Shown: in pieces, positions 5,804 through 14,239 of the stretch
Layout: each line of letters starts with the position of its first letter
Position numbering within the stretch: the first letter of the stretch is position 1
Assembly (NCBI GenBank): GCA_016936555.1
Contig: JAFGXR010000116.1
Coordinates: forward strand, 1-55,025
Direction: 5' to 3'
Source of the DNA: Spirochaetales bacterium
GTDB taxonomy: Bacteria; Spirochaetota; Spirochaetia; DSM-2461
DNA: 55,025 nucleotides
Position numbers and translations under genes: made by a program
Notes under the pieces: generated by a model
The model's database searches: none
What the model was told of the DNA's origin: nothing
What the model saw: only the letters and a program-made list of their open reading frames with translations

Positions 5804-5909
5804 AGTTTTTGTACCTCGTTTTCTGCCAGTATAGGGGGATTGTTCAGTTTTTTCCAATTCTTAATTGACATTCATTCCTGAATTCTGTAATCTTCAAACA
5901 ATAAAATTA

Positions 5910-5931
5910 TATCGATATATAGGTATCGATA
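5910..5931. promoter_or_regulatory. candidate Rex operator upstream of rex
   Basis: TATCGATA-N6-TATCGATA, a 22-bp element made of two identical self-complementary octamers, located 65 bp before rex. The same arrangement recurs in front of adhE, the classic Rex target. It differs from the textbook TTGTTAA-N4-TTAACAA Rex site, so assignment to Rex rests on position and recurrence. Confidence 0.65.
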
Positions 5932-5995
5932 TTGACAGCTCGGACAGGAGGTCTGATAATACGGAAAAACTTTTAAAGAGAGTGTTCCGCAAGTG

Positions 5996-6622
5996 ATGAA
6001 AAGTATACCGCTGCCCGCCATACGCCGCTATCCCCTGTATCTGAGGAGATTGAAGGCTTACAGGATGGGAGGAACTCTGTGGGTTTCCGCCACCATGCTG
6101 GCAGAGGACCTCGGGTTTTCCTCCATTCTGGTCCGCAAGGACCTCGCACTGACCGGACTGGAGGGACGGCCGAAATACGGTTTTTCCATTGATCCGCTTA
6201 TCGGGGCCATCGAGGAGAGTCTGGGATGGAACAACAGGACCGATGCCATTCTGGTCGGTGCGGGAAATCTCGGATCCGCCCTTCTGGGCTACAGTGGTTT
6301 CGCCCAGTACGGACTTGAGATTTCAGCTGTTTTCGACAGCGATCCGGCAAAGATCGGAACGAAAGTACAGGGCGTACCGGTTTTTCCAATGGAGAAACTG
6401 ACGGATTTTATCGGGAGGACCCATATTCCCATGGCTGTGCTGACCGTTCCGGCCGAATCGGCTCAGAGAACGGCGGAGCAGCTGGAGGATGCCGGAATCA
6501 GGGGCATCTGGAATTTCGCCCCGGCAAAGCTCAAGCTCTCCGATAAAGTTGTGGTTCAGCGTGTCGATCTGGCTTCCAGTTTTGCCGAGCTTTCATCCCG
6601 TCTGAAAAAAGATCAGACTTAG
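5996..6622 (+). CDS. rex: redox-sensing transcriptional repressor Rex
   Basis: About 208 residues, the usual Rex length. The N-terminal winged helix begins with the family signature SIPLPAIRRYPLYLRRL and includes SSILVRKDLALTG. The C-terminal Rossmann domain has the dinucleotide motif VGAGNLGSALLGY (about residues 85-97). Rex senses the NADH/NAD+ ratio and represses fermentation genes, releasing DNA when NADH rises. A GTG codon 3 bp upstream could also serve as the start. A terminator follows, so it is transcribed alone. The matching palindromes upstream of rex and adhE suggest autoregulation and control of adhE. Confidence 0.96.
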   Translation: MKSIPLPAIRRYPLYLRRLKAYRMGGTLWVSATMLAEDLGFSSILVRKDLALTGLEGRPKYGFSIDPLIGAIEESLGWNNRTDAILVGAGNLGSALLGYSGFAQYGLEISAVFDSDPAKIGTKVQGVPVFPMEKLTDFIGRTHIPMAVLTVPAESAQRTAEQLEDAGIRGIWNFAPAKLKLSDKVVVQRVDLASSFAELSSRLKKDQT

Positions 6623-6642
6623 AAGGGGTGACCAACAGTGCC

Positions 6643-6672
6643 GGCTCATATGAAGAGATATGAGCCTTTTTT
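6643..6672 (+). terminator. Rho-independent terminator after rex
   Basis: A 9-bp perfect stem (GGCTCATAT and its complement), 6-nt loop, then TTTTTT. It isolates rex from adhE. Confidence 0.9.
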
Positions 6673-6677
6673 GTAAA

Positions 6678-6705
6678 CACTATCGATATAAATGTATCGA
6701 TAGTG
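6678..6705. promoter_or_regulatory. candidate Rex operator upstream of adhE
   Basis: The TATCGATA-N6-TATCGATA core at 6681-6702 is extended to 11-bp inverted arms (CACTATCGATA and its complement). It begins 52 bp upstream of the adhE start, where a repressor would cover the promoter or early leader. It is the same core as the site in front of rex. Confidence 0.68.
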
Positions 6706-6729
6706 AAATATCTAGAAGGAGTGAAGAGA

Positions 6730-9342
6730 ATGAGTGAAAAGAAAACGACAGATCGGAAAGATGACAGCCTTGAAAAGCTGGACAAACTGATTGCCGCGGT
6801 CAGCGAAGCCCAGAACCGTTATGCCGCCTATACCCAGGAACAGGTCGATGATATTTTCAGGATTTCGGCAATAGCGGCCAATGAACAGCGGATCCGACTC
6901 GCCAAAGAGGCTGTTGCCGAAACGGGAATGGGTATCGTCGAAGACAAGGTTATTAAAAATCACTTTGCCTCGGAATTCATCTTCAACAAATACAAGGATA
7001 TGAAAACCTGCGGGTTCCTGGAAGAGGACAGCAGCTACGGAATCAAGAAGGTGGCCGAGCCTCTCGGCGTTATCTGCGGGATCATTCCCACGACTAATCC
7101 GACTTCCACTGTCATATTTAAGGCGCTAATCGCCCTTAAAACAAGAAACGCCATCATTTTCTCTCCCCACCCCCGGGCGAAGAAATGCACCATAGAAGCG
7201 GCGAAAGTCATCCGGGATGCGGCGGAGAGAGCCGGGGCTCCCAAAGGGCTGATCGGCTGGATCGACGAGCCCTCGCTGGAGCTTTCCAACCATATCATGA
7301 CGCATAAAAAAATCGCCCTGATTCTGGCGACCGGCGGTCCCGGCATGGTGAAAGCCGCCTATTCTTCGGGGCGCCCCGCTATCGGTGTCGGCGCCGGCAA
7401 CACGCCGGCTCTTATGGATGAAACGGCCGACGTCAAAATGGCGGTCAACTCTATCCTGATGAGCAAAACCTTTGATAACGGAGTCGTCTGCGCTTCCGAG
7501 CAGTCGGTTATCGTCCACAAATCCCTGTACGAAGAAGTAAAAAAGGAATTCACAGAAAGGGGAGCTCTCCTTCTGAACAAGGAACAGACCGACAAGCTGA
7601 GAAAAGTGATTCTCGATCCCGAAAGGGGAACCATTAATCCGGGCATCGTCGGTCAGAGAGCGGCCAAGATAGCTCAGATCGCCGGATTTTCCGTTCCCGA
7701 AGAGACCAAGGTCCTGATCGGCGAGGTAAAGGAAATTTCCCCCGGCGAGCCTATGGCCCATGAAAAGCTGAGTCCCTGCCTGGCTCTCTACAAATGCGAC
7801 TCTTTCGAAGAGGGGCTGGCTATGGCCCGGGACCTGGTCGTTCTGGGAGGAATCGGCCATACCTCTGTCCTCTACACAGATAAGAACAATCAGGACAGGA
7901 TCAGGCAGTTCGGCTCGGAAATCAAAACCGGACGGGTTCTCATCAATATGCCTTCCTCTCAGGGAGCTATCGGAGATATTTACAATTTCATGCTCGAACC
8001 GTCTCTGACTCTGGGCTGCGGAAGCTGGGGCGGAAACTCGGTCAGTGAAAACGTGGGAGTCAAACATCTTATGAATATCAAAACAGTCGCTGAAAGAAGA
8101 GAAAATATGCTCTGGTTTAAAATCCCCTCCAAAATCTACTTCAAATACGGCTGTCTTCCTCTGGCCCTGCGGGAGCTGGAAGGGAAGAAGCGCTGTTTTA
8201 TCGTAACGGACTCCTATCTCTATGATCATGGTTTCGTGGATAAAATCACTTCGGTTCTCAAGGAGACCGGAATCGACTGTCAGGTCTTCCATCAGGTCAA
8301 GCCGGATCCCTGTCTTTCCACGATCAATCAGGGGCTTGAGCTGCTGCGGTCCTTCAATCCCGATGTGATTATCGGATTCGGAGGGGGATCTCCCATGGAT
8401 GCGGCCAAGATCATGTGGCTTCTCTATGAACATCCCGAGCTCTCTTTCGAGGGGCTGGCGCTTCGCTTTATGGATATCGAAAAGAGAATTTACTCCCTTC
8501 CTTCGACCGGGAATAAAGCCTTCTTCACAGCTATACCGACAACTTCCGGTACCGGTTCTGAAGTGACCCCGTTCTCCGTCGTCACAGATGACCGGGCCAA
8601 TATGAAATACCCCATAGCGGATTACGCCCTGACGCCCGATATGGCCATCATCGATCCGGAGCTTGTCATGTCCATGCCCGGGAGCCTGACCGCCGCCTCG
8701 GGAATCGATGCGGTGACCCATGCCATCGAAGCTTTCTCTTCGGTCCTGGCGTCGGATTTCACCAACGGGCTGGCTCTCGAATCTCTGCGGATTCTCTTTA
8801 AATATCTCCCTATTTCCTTTAAGGAAGGGGATAAAAATTCCAAAGCCCGAGAAAAGGTTCACAACGCCGCGACTATGGCGGGAATGGCCTTCGCCAATGC
8901 TTTTCTGGGAATCTGCCACTCCATGGCCCATAAGCTGGGAGCCCGCTTCCATATCCCCCATGGAGTGGCCAACGCCCTCCTCATCACCCATGTCATCGAC
9001 TTCAACGCCGTGGAGAATCCCGTCAAGCAGACGGCTTTCCCCCAGTACGAATACCCGACTGCGGCTTCCCGTTATGCCCGTATTGCCGACTATCTGCAGC
9101 TCGGCGGAAAGAACGACGGACAGAAGGTGGGCAATTTAATCAAAGCCATTGAAGATCTTCGTCAGAAACTGGATGTACCGGCATCAATCAAACAGTATGG
9201 AATCTCCGAGGAAGATTTTATGGAGGCGGTGGACGAGCTTTCCGAACAGGCCTTCGATGATCAGTGCACGGGGGCCAACCCCCGCTATCCCATGATCAGC
9301 GAAATCAGAGATCTCTATCTGAAGGCCTATTACGGGAAATAG
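6730..9342 (+). CDS. adhE: bifunctional acetaldehyde/alcohol dehydrogenase AdhE
   Basis: 870-residue fusion that reduces acetyl-CoA to acetaldehyde and then ethanol, regenerating two NAD+. The N-terminal CoA-acylating aldehyde dehydrogenase domain (about 1-440) has the catalytic Cys at C254 in NGVVCASEQS. The C-terminal iron-dependent alcohol dehydrogenase has GGGSPMDAAK near 550 and the iron-binding histidines in HAIEAF, HSMAHKLG and HIPHG (about 660-745). AGGAG lies 9 bp before the ATG. The probable Rex operator upstream and the terminator-like hairpin downstream make it a redox-controlled unit. Length and motifs are complete, so the enzyme should be active. Confidence 0.97.
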   Translation: MSEKKTTDRKDDSLEKLDKLIAAVSEAQNRYAAYTQEQVDDIFRISAIAANEQRIRLAKEAVAETGMGIVEDKVIKNHFASEFIFNKYKDMKTCGFLEEDSSYGIKKVAEPLGVICGIIPTTNPTSTVIFKALIALKTRNAIIFSPHPRAKKCTIEAAKVIRDAAERAGAPKGLIGWIDEPSLELSNHIMTHKKIALILATGGPGMVKAAYSSGRPAIGVGAGNTPALMDETADVKMAVNSILMSKTFDNGVVCASEQSVIVHKSLYEEVKKEFTERGALLLNKEQTDKLRKVILDPERGTINPGIVGQRAAKIAQIAGFSVPEETKVLIGEVKEISPGEPMAHEKLSPCLALYKCDSFEEGLAMARDLVVLGGIGHTSVLYTDKNNQDRIRQFGSEIKTGRVLINMPSSQGAIGDIYNFMLEPSLTLGCGSWGGNSVSENVGVKHLMNIKTVAERRENMLWFKIPSKIYFKYGCLPLALRELEGKKRCFIVTDSYLYDHGFVDKITSVLKETGIDCQVFHQVKPDPCLSTINQGLELLRSFNPDVIIGFGGGSPMDAAKIMWLLYEHPELSFEGLALRFMDIEKRIYSLPSTGNKAFFTAIPTTSGTGSEVTPFSVVTDDRANMKYPIADYALTPDMAIIDPELVMSMPGSLTAASGIDAVTHAIEAFSSVLASDFTNGLALESLRILFKYLPISFKEGDKNSKAREKVHNAATMAGMAFANAFLGICHSMAHKLGARFHIPHGVANALLITHVIDFNAVENPVKQTAFPQYEYPTAASRYARIADYLQLGGKNDGQKVGNLIKAIEDLRQKLDVPASIKQYGISEEDFMEAVDELSEQAFDDQCTGANPRYPMISEIRDLYLKAYYGK

Positions 9343-9409: not shown

Positions 9410-9652
9410 ATGAAAGTACAGGTCGAGCTTTGTATGGGAAGCTCCTGCTTCGCCAGGGGAAACAGCCGGATTCTCGGCTTTCTGGAGCGGTATATCGGTG
9501 AAGAGGGGCTGCAGGGCCGGGTCGAGATTACCGGACATCTGTGTTTAGGCAATTGTTCATCGGGGCCGGTTGTCCGCATCAACGGCACCGACTATTTCGA
9601 TCTGAAGGAAAAGGAACTGGCCGGGCTTGTCGAGGAGGCTCTTCATGAGTAG
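9410..9652 (+). CDS. NuoE-like (2Fe-2S) thioredoxin-fold ferredoxin
   Basis: 80-residue stand-alone version of the thioredoxin-like [2Fe-2S] domain found in NuoE and HydC-type hydrogenase subunits. Four cysteines in the expected Cx4C...Cx3C order are C8, C13, C45 and C49. It is a small electron carrier or docking protein for the hydrogenase encoded immediately downstream, whose ATG lies inside its last codons (8-bp overlap). A second paralogue occurs three genes later. The start is fixed by GGAGG at about 9 bp. Confidence 0.87.
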   Translation: MKVQVELCMGSSCFARGNSRILGFLERYIGEEGLQGRVEITGHLCLGNCSSGPVVRINGTDYFDLKEKELAGLVEEALHE

Positions 9653-11393
9653 CAGCAGACAGCCCGTGTACACGGAAAAAACAAAATGCCGCGACTGTTA
9701 CAAGTGCGTGCGCTATTGTCCGGTTAAAGCCATCAAGGTCGAGGAAAACAGCGCCCGCATTATAGATGAACTGTGTATTTACTGCGGACGCTGCGTCGAT
9801 ATCTGTCCCAGTCACGCCAAAAAAGTCCGGAACGATGTTCCGGAAGTGAAAAAGCTTATCCGTTCGGGCCGGAAGGTCGTTCTGTCTCTGGCTCCCAGCT
9901 GGTCGACTGGCATTTTCGGAACCCGCGAAGAACTGACCGACTCCTTCCGGTCTCTGGGATTTCATGCTGTTTCGGAAACGGCTTTGGGGGCTGAACTTGT
10001 TTCCTCCTGGACGGCCGGCCGAATGGAAGATACCCGGGACATGATGATTTCTTCGGCCTGCCCGACAGTGAATGAGCTGTTCAGAAAGTATTATCCCCGG
10101 TATCTCGATAACCTGTCTAAAGCTCCCTCTCCTCTGGAGGCTCATGCACACTTTTTGAAAAAGCTGATGGGAGAGGACATCGCGGTAGTTTTTGCCGGTC
10201 CCTGCATCGCGAAAAAACTGGAGGCCGACAATCGGGATTCCGCCATAGATTTTGCCCTGACATTTGATGAAGTCTCCCAATGGCTGGAGGAATCCCCTCA
10301 AATCCTGTCGCGGTCGCCCTCTGATGGAAGCTCCGATTTTTATCCCTGTCAGGCTGTTTCCGGTTCGCTCTATGCCATGGAGGGGGGGATGATCCGATCC
10401 CTTGAGGAGGGCCGTGCCCATCGGAAGAGGACCATGGTTCCCCTTTCGGGAATGGTTCACATTATGGAAGCCCTCGATGAAATGGACGGAAAGGATAATA
10501 TTCTCCTGGAATTGCTCTCCTGCCCCGGAGGATGTGTTAACGGGTCGGGATTCAAGAACCGCGGGAACCAGTTCGCCTACAGGAAAAACAGTCTCGACCA
10601 CTTTGACAGAGCTCTGGCCAGATCATTTGCTCCGTCGCCTGTTCTCAAGCTGGCTGAAGAACTGCATCTTCAACTGCCCTTGAAAAATATAGAGCCCGCA
10701 GAGGTTCAAACGGATGATTCCTTTACCGGAGAGTTAATTGAGGAAGCCCTTCACGATCTGGGAAAGGAAAGAGAAGAGGACCGCCTCGATTGCGGGGGGT
10801 GCGGGTATAATTCCTGCCGGGATTTCGCCGTCGCCTACCTGAAAAAGATGGGAGAGAAACCCATGTGTGTTACCAATATGCGCAAGCGGGCCCAGAAAAA
10901 AGTCGATATGCTTCTCAGAACCCTTCCCATGGGCGTTGTCATCGTCAACAGAAGACATCAGATCGTCGAATGCAACAGCGGATTCGCCTCTCTGTTCGCC
11001 GACCCCGGTTCCATCTGCGACGCCGAATATGTCAAACGCCACAGCGATCTGCCCCTTATCAATTTCGTCGATCTCACGTCCTGTCTCGATGATATTCTGT
11101 CTGACCGGAAGAGTCTCTTCGAGGAGAGGCTGAAAATAAAGGGGAAGTTTCTCAAGATCACCTTTTTCTCTATCGATAAGGGCCATCTGGCGGGAGTCAT
11201 CATCCAGGATATAACCAGCGCTTCGGTCAAGCGCGAGGATGTGATCCGGAAAGCCGAGGAAGTTATCAGTAAAAACCTTCAGAACGTCCAGCAGATCGCT
11301 TCGCTGCTCGGAGAAAATGCGGCCGAAACGGAAATCATTCTCAGGTCCCTCACCGACCAGTTCCAGTTTACGGCTTCGGAGGGGAAGCCGTGA
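9645..11393 (+). CDS. sensory [FeFe] hydrogenase with C-terminal Fe-S and PAS domains (HydS/HfsB-like)
   Basis: 582 residues. Two N-terminal 4Fe-4S ferredoxin motifs (CRDCYKCVRYCP, CIYCGRCVDICP) precede an H-cluster domain: loop 1 SSACP (C139), loop 2 GPCIAKKLE (C about 187), loop 3 SCPGGCVNG (about 292-297). A further 4Fe-4S motif DCGGCGYNSC lies near 382-391, followed by a PAS domain (about 415-520). The proton-relay Cys of catalytic enzymes (first C of TSCCP) is Ala138 here, as known for group C/D sensory hydrogenases. It should bind H2 but turn over slowly, passing a redox or H2 signal through PAS. The neighbouring SpoIIE phosphatase is the likely output. The ATG at 9645 is chosen for GAGGAGG upstream. 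Confidence 0.9.
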   Translation: MSSSRQPVYTEKTKCRDCYKCVRYCPVKAIKVEENSARIIDELCIYCGRCVDICPSHAKKVRNDVPEVKKLIRSGRKVVLSLAPSWSTGIFGTREELTDSFRSLGFHAVSETALGAELVSSWTAGRMEDTRDMMISSACPTVNELFRKYYPRYLDNLSKAPSPLEAHAHFLKKLMGEDIAVVFAGPCIAKKLEADNRDSAIDFALTFDEVSQWLEESPQILSRSPSDGSSDFYPCQAVSGSLYAMEGGMIRSLEEGRAHRKRTMVPLSGMVHIMEALDEMDGKDNILLELLSCPGGCVNGSGFKNRGNQFAYRKNSLDHFDRALARSFAPSPVLKLAEELHLQLPLKNIEPAEVQTDDSFTGELIEEALHDLGKEREEDRLDCGGCGYNSCRDFAVAYLKKMGEKPMCVTNMRKRAQKKVDMLLRTLPMGVVIVNRRHQIVECNSGFASLFADPGSICDAEYVKRHSDLPLINFVDLTSCLDDILSDRKSLFEERLKIKGKFLKITFFSIDKGHLAGVIIQDITSASVKREDVIRKAEEVISKNLQNVQQIASLLGENAAETEIILRSLTDQFQFTASEGKP

Positions 11394-12583
11394 GCTATTT
11401 CATTGAAGTGGACTACTCCCAATATTTTAAAGACGGGCAGAGTATAGGAGGCGATGTATTTCTTCTCTCCAGGGGAGAGGAGAGGGACAGGATCATCTGC
11501 ACTCTTTCCGACGGGCTGGGCAGCGGAGTCAAAGCCAATGTCCTGGCCAACCTGACGGCTCATATGGCTCAGAAATATGCCGCCAGTTCCATCGATATGG
11601 TGAAATCCGCGGAAATTATCATGAATACTCTACCTGTTTGCCGGGAGAGAAAAATCAGCTATTCCACCTTTACCATCCTGCGAATGGAAAATCTGAAAGA
11701 AGATAAAGTGCGGACATCCATTGTCGAGTACGACAATCCGGGATTCCTTCTTTTGCGGGGAGGGGCTTATGTTCATCCCGAAAAACAACGGCAGGAGCTC
11801 AAAAGGCCCGGAGCATTTAAAGATGAGAACCTCTTTCACACGGAGCTGGAACTGGAAGCGGGTGACAGGATCGTCTTTTTTACCGACGGGATCACCCAGG
11901 CCGGTCTGGGAACCAAACCGCTGCCTCTGGGCTGGAGGGAGGGAAATGTCAAAGAGTATATTCTGGATCTGGTAGAGAACCGGCCTGACATCTCCGCCTA
12001 TGAGCTGGCTTCGGCTGTAACGGCCAAAGCCAGGGCTCTCGATATATACAAAGCCAAGGATGATATCACCTGTGCCTCTGTCTATATCAGAAAACCGAGA
12101 CGGCTGATCGTATCCACCGGCCCGCCCATAGATGAATCGCGCGATGAAAGGCTGGTCGCTGCGATCCGTGATTTTGATGGACGGAAAGTTATCGCCGGGG
12201 GAACGACAGCTCAGATTTATTCGCGCATCGAAGGTAAAAAGCTCCAGGTGTCTCTTTCCGATTTCGACGGCGATCTTCCGCCCTGCGCCGCCATGGCGGG
12301 CATCGATCTGGTTTCGGAGGGGATGCTGACCCTCAACAGAATCGCCGAGCATCTGGAGACACGGATTTCTCTCCATGAGCTGCCGCACAACAGTGCCGGA
12401 CGGTTCCTCAAGCTCCTTCTCGAAAGCGACAGGGTCCGGTTTCTCGTGGGGACGAAAATAAACGACGCTCATCAGGACCCCAGCATCCCCTTTGAAATCG
12501 GTATCAGGCGTTCCATTATCGGGCGCATTATCAAGGCTCTCGAAGAGAATTATCTCAAAGAGACGGAACTGGAATTTATTTAG
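11390..12583 (+). CDS. SpoIIE/PP2C-type serine phosphatase
   Basis: 397 residues. The N-terminal ~210 residues form a PP2C-like SpoIIE domain with metal-binding aspartates in LSDGLGSG (about residue 43) and FFTDGITQAG (about 165). A C-terminal region (about 240-397, STGPPIDESRDERLV to the end) is not recognised by me but begins like a second conserved module. Such phosphatases dephosphorylate anti-sigma-antagonist-like partners. The GTG start overlaps the hydrogenase TGA (GTGA), implying coupled synthesis and a joint function: the PAS-hydrogenase probably controls its activity. A matching HATPase kinase is not adjacent but is encoded at 27142. Confidence 0.85.
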   Translation: MSYFIEVDYSQYFKDGQSIGGDVFLLSRGEERDRIICTLSDGLGSGVKANVLANLTAHMAQKYAASSIDMVKSAEIIMNTLPVCRERKISYSTFTILRMENLKEDKVRTSIVEYDNPGFLLLRGGAYVHPEKQRQELKRPGAFKDENLFHTELELEAGDRIVFFTDGITQAGLGTKPLPLGWREGNVKEYILDLVENRPDISAYELASAVTAKARALDIYKAKDDITCASVYIRKPRRLIVSTGPPIDESRDERLVAAIRDFDGRKVIAGGTTAQIYSRIEGKKLQVSLSDFDGDLPPCAAMAGIDLVSEGMLTLNRIAEHLETRISLHELPHNSAGRFLKLLLESDRVRFLVGTKINDAHQDPSIPFEIGIRRSIIGRIIKALEENYLKETELEFI

Positions 12584-12602
12584 CTCTGCAAGGAGAGTGT
12601 TT

Positions 12603-12869
12603 ATGGAAAAAATCATTGTTGAAATTTGTACGGGCACGGCCTGTTTTGTTATGGGATCGGGAAAGCTTCTGTCTATTGAAGAGTCGTTGCCAGCCAATAT
12701 CCGCGATTACGTGGAGGTTCAACCGGTCCTCTGTTGCGGGCTGTGCAGGGACTGGACCAATTCAAAACCTCCCGTCGTTTCCGTTGCCGGAAAAATGATT
12801 GCCGGTGCCGATGAAGAGAAAATTATAAAGGCCGTTATGGCTGCCCTGGAAGGAGGTAACCTATGCTGA
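12603..12869 (+). CDS. NuoE-like (2Fe-2S) thioredoxin-fold ferredoxin (second copy)
   Basis: 88-residue paralogue of the protein at 9410. Cysteines C9 and C14 (ICTGTACFVMG) and a later CCGLC group give the four ligands of a [2Fe-2S] cluster in a thioredoxin-like fold. It overlaps the next hydrogenase by 7 bp and has its own AAGGAG site, so it is probably the dedicated electron carrier of the downstream catalytic hydrogenase. The first copy would serve the sensory one. Confidence 0.85.
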   Translation: MEKIIVEICTGTACFVMGSGKLLSIEESLPANIRDYVEVQPVLCCGLCRDWTNSKPPVVSVAGKMIAGADEEKIIKAVMAALEGGNLC

Positions 12870-14239
12870 CGGAAAAGAATCAGTACAGTTACCTCCGGAA
12901 AGAGCTTCTCACCCGTTTTTTCACATTTCTTTTCGAGAGCAAAAATCCCCTGGAAATCAATAAGATCCCCTATGAAATGATTCCTTCGGGAGGAGATCCC
13001 CGGCGGTGCTGCATCTATAAAGACAGGGAAATGATCAAGTACCGGCTCCTGTCGCTTATGGGGTACGATTTATCGGAAAGTTTTGATGAAAGCCCCTCTC
13101 TCTACGAGTTTTTCAACCGCTGCGGCAAGGACCGGGCACCGGCTCTTCCCCCCCTCTCTGTCATCACGGCAGCCTGCAGCTCCTGCCGTAGCAAACAGTA
13201 CCGCGTTACGGAGCTCTGCCGCGGATGTCTGGCCCGCCCCTGTCAGACAATCTGCCCCGCCGATGCCATTTCCATGAAAAGCGGAAAGGCTTTGATCGAT
13301 GGCGAAAAATGCATTAACTGCGGAAAATGCCGGGAGTCCTGTCCCTACAGCGCCATAGTCTATATTCCCGTGCCCTGCGAAGAGGTCTGCCCGGTCGGCG
13401 CCATTATAAAAAAAGAAGGCCATGCCATAGAGATCGACCGGGACAAATGTATCTCCTGCGGACGCTGTACGCGGTCCTGCCCGTTCGGAGCCATCGTGGA
13501 GAAAAGCCATATTGTGCCGCTGGTCGCTGCGATAAAACAGAAAAAAGACATGACCCTGATGATAGCTCCATCGCTTTACGATCAGCTTCCGGGAGCGGAC
13601 AGTCAGATTCTGGCGGCGTTGAAAGCCGCGGGATTCTCACGGGTTTACGAGCTTCAGGAAGCCGCGGAAATCGTGGCGGAAGAGGAGGGAAAAGAGCTAC
13701 TGGAGAGGATGGAGAACGGTCAGTCCTTCATGACGACATCCTGCTGTCCCGCCTATGTGGAGACAGTAAAAAAGCATATACCGGAACTGGCTTCCCATGT
13801 ATCGGATACTCCTTCGCCCATGATGGCCGGGGCGCGGATCCTGAGAGAAAAATACCCAGGTACAACGATTGTCTTTGCCGGACCCTGCCTGGCAAAAAAG
13901 GTTGAGGCTTATGAAAAAGGGGGTGTTGATCTCGTTTTGAACTTTGAAGAACTGGGAACGCTTCTTATTGCGAAATCGGTTGAAATCCTTGATTATCCCG
14001 CTGCTGAAGAAGTGACCTCTTTCGCCTTGGGAAGAGGGTTTGCCCGGTCCGGCGGAGTGGGAAAAGCTGTCAAAGCCTCGCTCGAAGAGGACATTCACTG
14101 TTCTCAGATAGACGGTCTATCGGTTAAAACAATCCGTTTGATGAAAACATGGATTAAAAAAGCACCCGAAGGCAGACTCGTCGAAGTCATGGCTTGTGAA
14201 GGAGGTTGCAGCAGGGGGCCCTGTTCTCTTAATTCATAA
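12863..14239 (+). CDS. monomeric [FeFe] hydrogenase, catalytic (group B-like) type
   Basis: 458 residues. After a ~95-residue unassigned N-terminus come three ferredoxin-type cluster motifs (CRGCLARPCQTICP, CINCGKCRESCP with CEEVCP, CISCGRCTRSCP; about 110-215). The H-cluster domain follows: TTSCCPAY with both cysteines (294-295), GPCLAKKVEA (about 341) and MACEGGCSRGPC (about 444-453). The proton-relay Cys is kept, so this enzyme should produce or oxidise H2, probably re-oxidising ferredoxin. The protein stops six residues after the GGC motif, shorter than relatives that continue past this loop, and the gene overlaps the convergent GGDEF gene by 11 bp. HydEFG maturases are not in the window. 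Confidence 0.88.
   Translation: MLTEKNQYSYLRKELLTRFFTFLFESKNPLEINKIPYEMIPSGGDPRRCCIYKDREMIKYRLLSLMGYDLSESFDESPSLYEFFNRCGKDRAPALPPLSVITAACSSCRSKQYRVTELCRGCLARPCQTICPADAISMKSGKALIDGEKCINCGKCRESCPYSAIVYIPVPCEEVCPVGAIIKKEGHAIEIDRDKCISCGRCTRSCPFGAIVEKSHIVPLVAAIKQKKDMTLMIAPSLYDQLPGADSQILAALKAAGFSRVYELQEAAEIVAEEEGKELLERMENGQSFMTTSCCPAYVETVKKHIPELASHVSDTPSPMMAGARILREKYPGTTIVFAGPCLAKKVEAYEKGGVDLVLNFEELGTLLIAKSVEILDYPAAEEVTSFALGRGFARSGGVGKAVKASLEEDIHCSQIDGLSVKTIRLMKTWIKKAPEGRLVEVMACEGGCSRGPCSLNS

Follow-up and report, generated by a model that had tools for sequence, protein, structure and literature searches.

The rex-adhE locus

The window, by which we mean the whole 55,025-nucleotide stretch of Spirochaetales DNA that was analysed (contig JAFGXR010000116.1), contains a gene for the NAD(H)-sensing repressor Rex that is followed by adhE and by [FeFe]-hydrogenase genes (Table 1). 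The Rex protein, which we call Rex1, matches the family model NF003994 at 246 bits (cut-off 130). It has a winged-helix N-terminal domain (PF06971, 47.0 bits, cut-off 27) and a Rossmann NAD-binding domain (PF02629, 87.5 bits, cut-off 22.3), with GAGNLG as its GxGNxG motif. A tyrosine and an aspartate align with Tyr100 and Asp191 of T. maritima Rex, which are among the switch residues whose roles are described in PMC8836258. The adhE reading frame matches NF010378 at 1414 bits (cut-off 951).

The initial annotation pointed to a 22-bp element, TATCGATA-N6-TATCGATA, that precedes both rex and adhE with identical octamers and different 6-bp spacers. All of this was borne out: TATCGATATATAGGTATCGATA before rex and TATCGATATAAATGTATCGATA before adhE are both exact, and their spacers (tatagg and taaatg) are unlike. 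Two sigma-70-like promoters flank the rex operator. The upstream promoter stops just before the operator, and its -10 box is weak and was missed by a promoter scan; the other directly abuts the right octamer. In two congeners (G002 and G001), the octamer block and both TTGACA boxes are kept in the alignment, while the spacers have changed. The operator before adhE, 27 bp ahead of the ATG at 6730, is also conserved in both. Because rex ends in an intrinsic terminator, adhE needs its own promoter region, and this is where the second operator sits.

Each operator is accompanied by a weaker third half-site. At rex, AAACAATA together with the next octamer scores 22.4 bits with our operator matrix, and its place is taken by AATCGTTA in G002 and by ATTCGATA in G001. 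At adhE, TATCTAGA agrees with the octamer at 6 of 8 bases, and 6695-6716 scores 16.0 bits. Beyond these sites, the window reaches at most 8.8 bits, so the adhE site presumably controls the downstream hydrogenase genes as well. These genes (9410-14239) encode a small [2Fe-2S] protein, an [FeFe]-hydrogenase-like protein with an extra FeS domain (which we take to be HydS-like), a SpoIIE-type phosphatase, and a group B hydrogenase. The phosphatase within this cluster suggests a sensory hydrogenase.

Table 1. Features of the rex-adhE region, in positions of the window. Model R1 is described in the next section.
Feature	Position	Strand	Remarks
Probable upstream rex promoter, TTGACA (5865-5870), 17 nt, TAATCT (5888-5893)	5865..5893	+	Read by eye
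Weak third half-site AAACAATA	5896..5903	.	14 bp before left octamer of rex operator
rex operator TATCGATA-tatagg-TATCGATA	5910..5931	.	Genome's second-best match to model R1, E 0.027
Sigma-70-like promoter, TTGACA-17-GATAAT	5932..5960	+	11/12 matches; kept in G002 and G001
rex (Rex1), NAD(H)-sensing repressor, wing GRPKYGF	5993..6622	+	Start GTG 5993 or ATG 5996
Intrinsic terminator after rex	6643..6666	+	Terminator scan
adhE operator TATCGATA-taaatg-TATCGATA	6681..6702	.	Genome's best match to model R1, E 0.007
Weak third half-site TATCTAGA	6709..6716	.	14 bp after right octamer of adhE operator
adhE, bifunctional acetaldehyde/alcohol dehydrogenase	6730..9342	+	ORF 6703-9342, likely start 6730; AGGAGTG ahead of ATG
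Thioredoxin-like [2Fe-2S] protein	9410..9652	+	No operator ahead; presumably co-transcribed
[FeFe]-hydrogenase-like protein	9627..11393	+	Fe_hyd_lg_C and FeS domains; later start at MSSSRQPVYTEK likelier
Monomeric group B [FeFe] hydrogenase	12863..14239	+	TIGR04105 477 bits (cut-off 450)

Sites in the genome and in related bacteria

The genome (4,727,195 bases in 134 contigs, 95% complete) has no further exact copies of the 22-mer. If up to three mismatches are allowed, the window has four matches (shuffled windows averaged 0.30, and 0 of 100 reached four). The two extra matches, with two or three mismatches, are at 5896-5917 and 6695-6716; these are probably not noise, as they contain the third half-sites in a 14-bp register. 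At the same threshold, the genome has 44 forward matches versus 16 for the reversed control, and nearly all of the 44 have two or three mismatches.

We also searched with model R1, a sequence-only model of 28 rows (17 operators from other genomes and 11 reverse complements) from which the sites in the window were left out. In the window's own genome, these two sites rank first and second, and the next match, elsewhere, has E = 1.5. The best matches in G002 are the rex and adhE sites, which are both training members, as are the corresponding sites in G001. G001 also has sites that were not used in training before a NuoE/NuoF operon (L188), an iron-dependent alcohol dehydrogenase (L196), and an [FeFe]-hydrogenase-like gene (L202), with gene names as read from the ORFs, as well as matches on contigs C108, C296, C267, and C339. 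A third member of the genus, G003 (88% complete), lacks Rex1 and full-length AdhE and has no match to model R1 better than 1.15. At this completeness, the lack of a match says little. Rex1 and full-length AdhE are missing together in this genome, as if operator, repressor, and target had come or gone together.

When we searched 248 genomes of the class and allowed one mismatch at most, 52 genomes had the pattern, at 89 forward sites in all versus 13 for the reversed control (totals added up by hand). We retrieved 30 loci by the DNA pattern alone, of which three are from the genus. Among the 27 from outside the genus, 21 precede redox genes: aldehyde dehydrogenase or AdhE (7), iron-dependent alcohol dehydrogenase (4), or a NuoE-like [2Fe-2S] subunit (10). 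Two genomes (G041 and G054) repeat the arrangement of the window, with the site flanked by a Rex gene on one side and an aldehyde dehydrogenase gene on the other. The sites precede rex, adhE, hydrogenase, and alcohol dehydrogenase genes, so these genes have the make-up of a Rex regulon. The initial annotation had suggested searching the genome for the element before fermentation and hydrogenase genes, and both the top two matches to model R1 and the loci of the class agree with that expectation.

The other six of the 27 loci adjoin none of these redox genes. Two are inside ORFs (L222 and L223), L235 is close to a glutathione peroxidase gene and L246 to LysR/FGGY genes, and the last two are L240 and L241. 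At L235 (genome G016), an exact TATCGATA-N6-TATCGATA and the start of the glutathione peroxidase gene are about 140 bp apart, which makes this gene a possible target outside fermentation. Searching the phylum for the exact pattern was too strict, with six sites in 5 of 296 genomes. Four of these are at Rex-type targets (the rex and adhE of our genome, rex with NuoE in G131, and NuoE in G307), and two are not (G080 and G108).

We did not find the expected Rex1 sites at two of the genome's own NuoE-like loci: L252 and L256 (two of the four NuoE-like matches, and the ones that we looked at) have no TCGATA operator. About 270-300 bp before the NuoE-like gene of L256 there are direct repeats at a 14-bp pitch (TATAGATA, TATAGATA, and AATAGATA; L256:1198-1233, on G000:C116). 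This array is not a Rex1 dyad and is perhaps a Rex2-type or other array (Rex2 is described below).

A Rex subfamily with proline in the wing

We aligned 166 Rex loci, which are part of the Rex matches from 61 relatives, 392 genomes of the phylum, and 12 loci from other phyla. At the position of T. maritima residue 60, in the wing, 144 have proline, 19 have lysine or arginine, and 3 have cysteine, alanine, or threonine. Lysine or arginine follows at position 61 in 143 of the 144 Pro60 proteins, and the wing of Rex1 (GRPKYGF) fits this pattern. In a quick maximum-likelihood tree, whose long branches leave the details unsure, 143 of the 144 Pro60 proteins and the three with Cys, Ala, or Thr at this position share one side of a branch with SH-aLRT support of 97. 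Members on this side come from five phyla: Spirochaetota (the phylum of the window), Elusimicrobiota, Armatimonadota (with Cys60), Planctomycetota, and that of Desulfobulbus. The initial annotation proposed that Rex recognition has shifted in this lineage; a shift is supported, but it belongs to a Rex subfamily of several phyla and not to this lineage only.

The genome encodes two Rex proteins from the Pro60 side, Rex1 and Rex2 (G000:C64:58462-59061, L058). The promoter of rex2 lacks TCGATA and has CATGGATA-N6-TATCTATA and AT-rich repeats instead. Base 4 of the half-site may possibly insulate the two Rex regulons from each other.

Operator letters by type of Rex

The consensus Rex operator is TTGTGAAN4TTCACAA (PMC6391272, PMC8376106). 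The copies in the window share with it the 18-bp dyad frame, G5 and A8 in each half, and a location at rex and adhE promoters. Unlike the consensus, they have C and A instead of T at bases 4 and 6, the half-site is self-complementary, and the octamers form 14-bp arrays.

To compare operators without presupposing these letters, we scanned 165 promoters (143 of Pro60 rex genes and 22 others, with 100 shuffles each) for dyads. The scan rewards the Rex frame, T3, G5, A8, and symmetry, and ignores which letters stand at bases 4, 6, and 7. A dyad at p ≤ 0.05 was found in 33 of the 143 Pro60 rex promoters and in 5 of the 22 others (one of these, L016, has Cys60). The other 110 Pro60 promoters had no dyad at this threshold, so for most of the clade the motif could not be defined from rex promoters alone. 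Some of the Pro60 dyads at p ≤ 0.05 look like chance (L033, L087, L089, L047, and L071).

Among 36 distinct sites, all 4 that go with a basic residue 60 have T/T at base 4, versus 2 of the 32 that go with a non-basic one (Fisher, 2.5e-4). The two exceptions are L087, which is chance-like, and L143, which also has a TATCGATA-type array. In the 54 halves of the 27 Pro60 sites with p ≤ 0.03, the commonest letter at base 4 is C (34 halves; A has 11, T has 6, and G has 3), and at base 6 it is A (39 halves; T has 10 and G has 5). Wherever a site was found for a Rex of the same phylum with a basic residue 60, it was of the TTGTGA type. The Pro60 rex promoter at L143 (G203) has a canonical TTTTGTGATTTTATTCACAAAA along with its array, and that genome has three Rex matches; this promoter is possibly a junction between two Rex circuits.

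Contact residues and the two changed bases

The contacts described for T. maritima Rex include Arg48 with Gua5, Lys49 with Gua7 and Ade8, and, from the wing, Arg60 with O2 of Thy4 and Gly61 with O2 of Thy3 (PMC8836258). In S. agalactiae Rex, the contacts described include one from Ala47 to T6 by way of water and a wing arginine in the minor groove (PMC8376106); Ala47 aligns with residue 45 of T. maritima Rex in the alignment of PMC8836258.

In our Pro60 set, Arg48 is kept in 141 of 144 proteins and Lys49 in all 144, whereas residue 45 is Ile in 125 of the 144 versus 0 of the 19 proteins with a basic residue 60. Recognition residues, which the initial annotation proposed to compare, thus differ from canonical Rex at the two changed bases and are kept at the unchanged ones. 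We infer that the changes at base 4 and base 6 are most likely due to altered contact residues (Arg60 to Pro, and Ser or Ala to Ile at residue 45). The Pro60 and basic-60 proteins reflect one ancient split, so residue and base do not form independent pairs, and the cause is suggested rather than proven. Also, T. ethanolicus Rex has Gln at position 60 of its wing, so a basic residue 60 is dispensable in some Rex proteins outside the Pro60 set. We dropped Gly61 alone as an explanation for the base contacts, as GNKKGGY-type wings, which lack this glycine, still pair with TTGTGA.

A close comparison is T. maritima Rex with the TM0201 operator, ATTTGAGAAATTTATCACAAAA (7WB3). It belongs to the same family, it has Arg48 and Lys49, and one half of this operator already has A6. 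Unlike Rex1 and its sites, it has T at base 4 and GKRGVGY as its wing, versus GRPKYGF.

Proposed regulation by Rex1

We are confident that the element is the operator of the product of the adjoining gene, Rex1, as predicted from sequence, and that Rex1 is a repressor of fermentation with shifted recognition. A Rex1 dimer would bind the two octamers, with the TCGATA halves facing each other in an 18-bp frame (TCGATA-N6-TATCGA). Relative to TTGTGA-N6-TCACAA, base 4 is changed from T to C and base 6 from T to A, while Arg48 and Lys49 would still read G5 and bases 7-8. At rex, the operator covers the start region of the upstream promoter and abuts the -35 box of the second one; at adhE, it lies between the terminator of rex and the ribosome site. 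Rex1 bound at these sites should keep rex, adhE, and the downstream hydrogenase genes from being transcribed. A rise in NADH should release it, and the formation of ethanol and H2 would then reoxidize NADH. We infer the binding, the repression, and the release by NADH; the sites, their conservation, the content of the regulon, the clade, and the pitch of the arrays are what the sequences contain.

We think it unlikely that the sites are read instead by Rex2, or by both Rex proteins. Rex2 is also a Pro60 protein (its wing is GKPRVGY) with Arg48 and Lys49, and it might bind as well. However, it is rex1 itself that carries the site, and in G003, Rex2 is present while Rex1 and strong sites are absent (although this genome is incomplete and has no AdhE). 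Also, in the genus whose closest Rex is Rex2-like (g3), rex promoters have AATAGATATAAATATATCTT-type sites, and the adhE promoter of its member G005 has TTTAGATA, TATTGATA, TATAGATT, and TATTGATA; base 4 is A or T in these sites, not C. Such Rex2-type sites of the phylum (TAGATA-N6-TATCTA) resemble the Rex1 sites in their frame, in the Pro60 wing of the protein, and in having a 14-bp array (at G005 adhE), and differ from them at base 4.

It is less probable still that the octamers are bound by some unrelated regulator of fermentation genes that has rex among its targets. The octamer does depart from known Rex boxes at two half-site positions, and binding by Rex is a prediction. But the site precedes genes of this Rex clade in several phyla, including Desulfobulbus (TATCGAGAATTAATTCTCGATA) and Elusimicrobia (TATCGATATAAGTTTATCGATT), it retains G5 and A8 in the Rex frame, it is found at AdhE, ADH, and NuoE genes, and Rex proteins of the same phylum with other residues pair with TTGTGA. 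The initial annotation stated that its reading would be refuted by an element lying mainly at genes of an unrelated factor, which is not what we saw, given the 21 of 27 loci at fermentation- or hydrogenase-type genes. As for chance, or recurrence of ATCGAT in coding sequence, we give it almost no credence: the reversed control does have 16 matches to the genome's 44 and some distant matches are inside ORFs (L222 and L223), but exact copies are limited to rex and adhE, they are conserved with changed spacers in two congeners, and 21 of the 27 distant loci are at redox genes, all of which already contradicts this reading.

We found nothing relevant in the open-licence literature on this octamer with Rex, nor on Rex in spirochaetes, and we provisionally consider the site to be a new variant of the Rex operator that belongs to a widespread Rex subfamily. 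Predictions of regulons with TTGTGA-type motifs will miss such operators, and control of fermentation by Rex could be overlooked in the phyla of this subfamily. Pairing of proteins with their DNA sites also yields a small candidate recognition code, of residue 60 with base 4 and residue 45 with base 6.

Half-sites at a 14-bp pitch

The octamers are palindromic, and they are often continued by further half-sites at exactly 14-bp pitch. At each offset from 8 to 40 bp, we compared the flanking octamer to TATCGATA and counted a match if at least 6 of 8 bases agreed. For 34 distinct operators, 16 of 68 flanks match at 14 bp, versus 25 of 2176 at the 32 other offsets. At the 21 redox-gene loci that were found by pattern, this is 14 of 42 versus 11 of 1344 (Fisher, 1.8e-16), and at the six pattern-found loci away from redox genes, 0 of 12 flanks match at 14 bp. 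G001 nuoE and G005 adhE each have four half-sites in register. No third half-sites were evident in the 10 canonical-type promoters that we looked at. On average, 2.10 of the 8 positions are self-complementary in canonical-type half-sites, versus 4.78 in the Pro-wing type.

Since octamers recur at 14 bp, neighbouring operators share half-sites. Two claims of the initial annotation change with this. The 22-bp element does appear to be a Rex operator, but its unit is an array of palindromic octamers at 14-bp pitch. And although the exactness of the octamers was taken as a sign of selection on half-sites, and they are exact, the sharing of half-sites may explain part of it.

The two base changes make the half-site self-complementary, and with recurrence at 14 bp, one octamer can serve two overlapping operators. 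A more tentative proposal, which we consider possible but would not favor, is that the Rex subfamily of several phyla has in this way made its operator an extendable array, in which every octamer doubles as the right half of one site and the left half of the following one, and dimers can bind in register every 14 bp, either side by side or alternating. Sites 14 bp apart are separated by about 1.33 turns, which puts them about 120 degrees from each other round the helix. Binding by several dimers is not unheard of for Rex, as gel shifts of S. agalactiae Rex with the adhE and rex promoters gave several bands, for which the authors mention possible oligomerization around the operator (PMC8376106).

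If the operator is extendable, then the NADH-dependent switch would be steeper than with a single box. The arrays also raise a new question, which is whether Rex dimers have half-sites in common and respond cooperatively to the NADH/NAD+ ratio. For Fur and DtxR/IdeR, inverted repeats that overlap can be used by adjacent dimers on different faces of the DNA. The operators of those proteins are like the Rex1 arrays in this overlap; the proteins and their signals are unrelated, and co-binding by Rex1 is putative.
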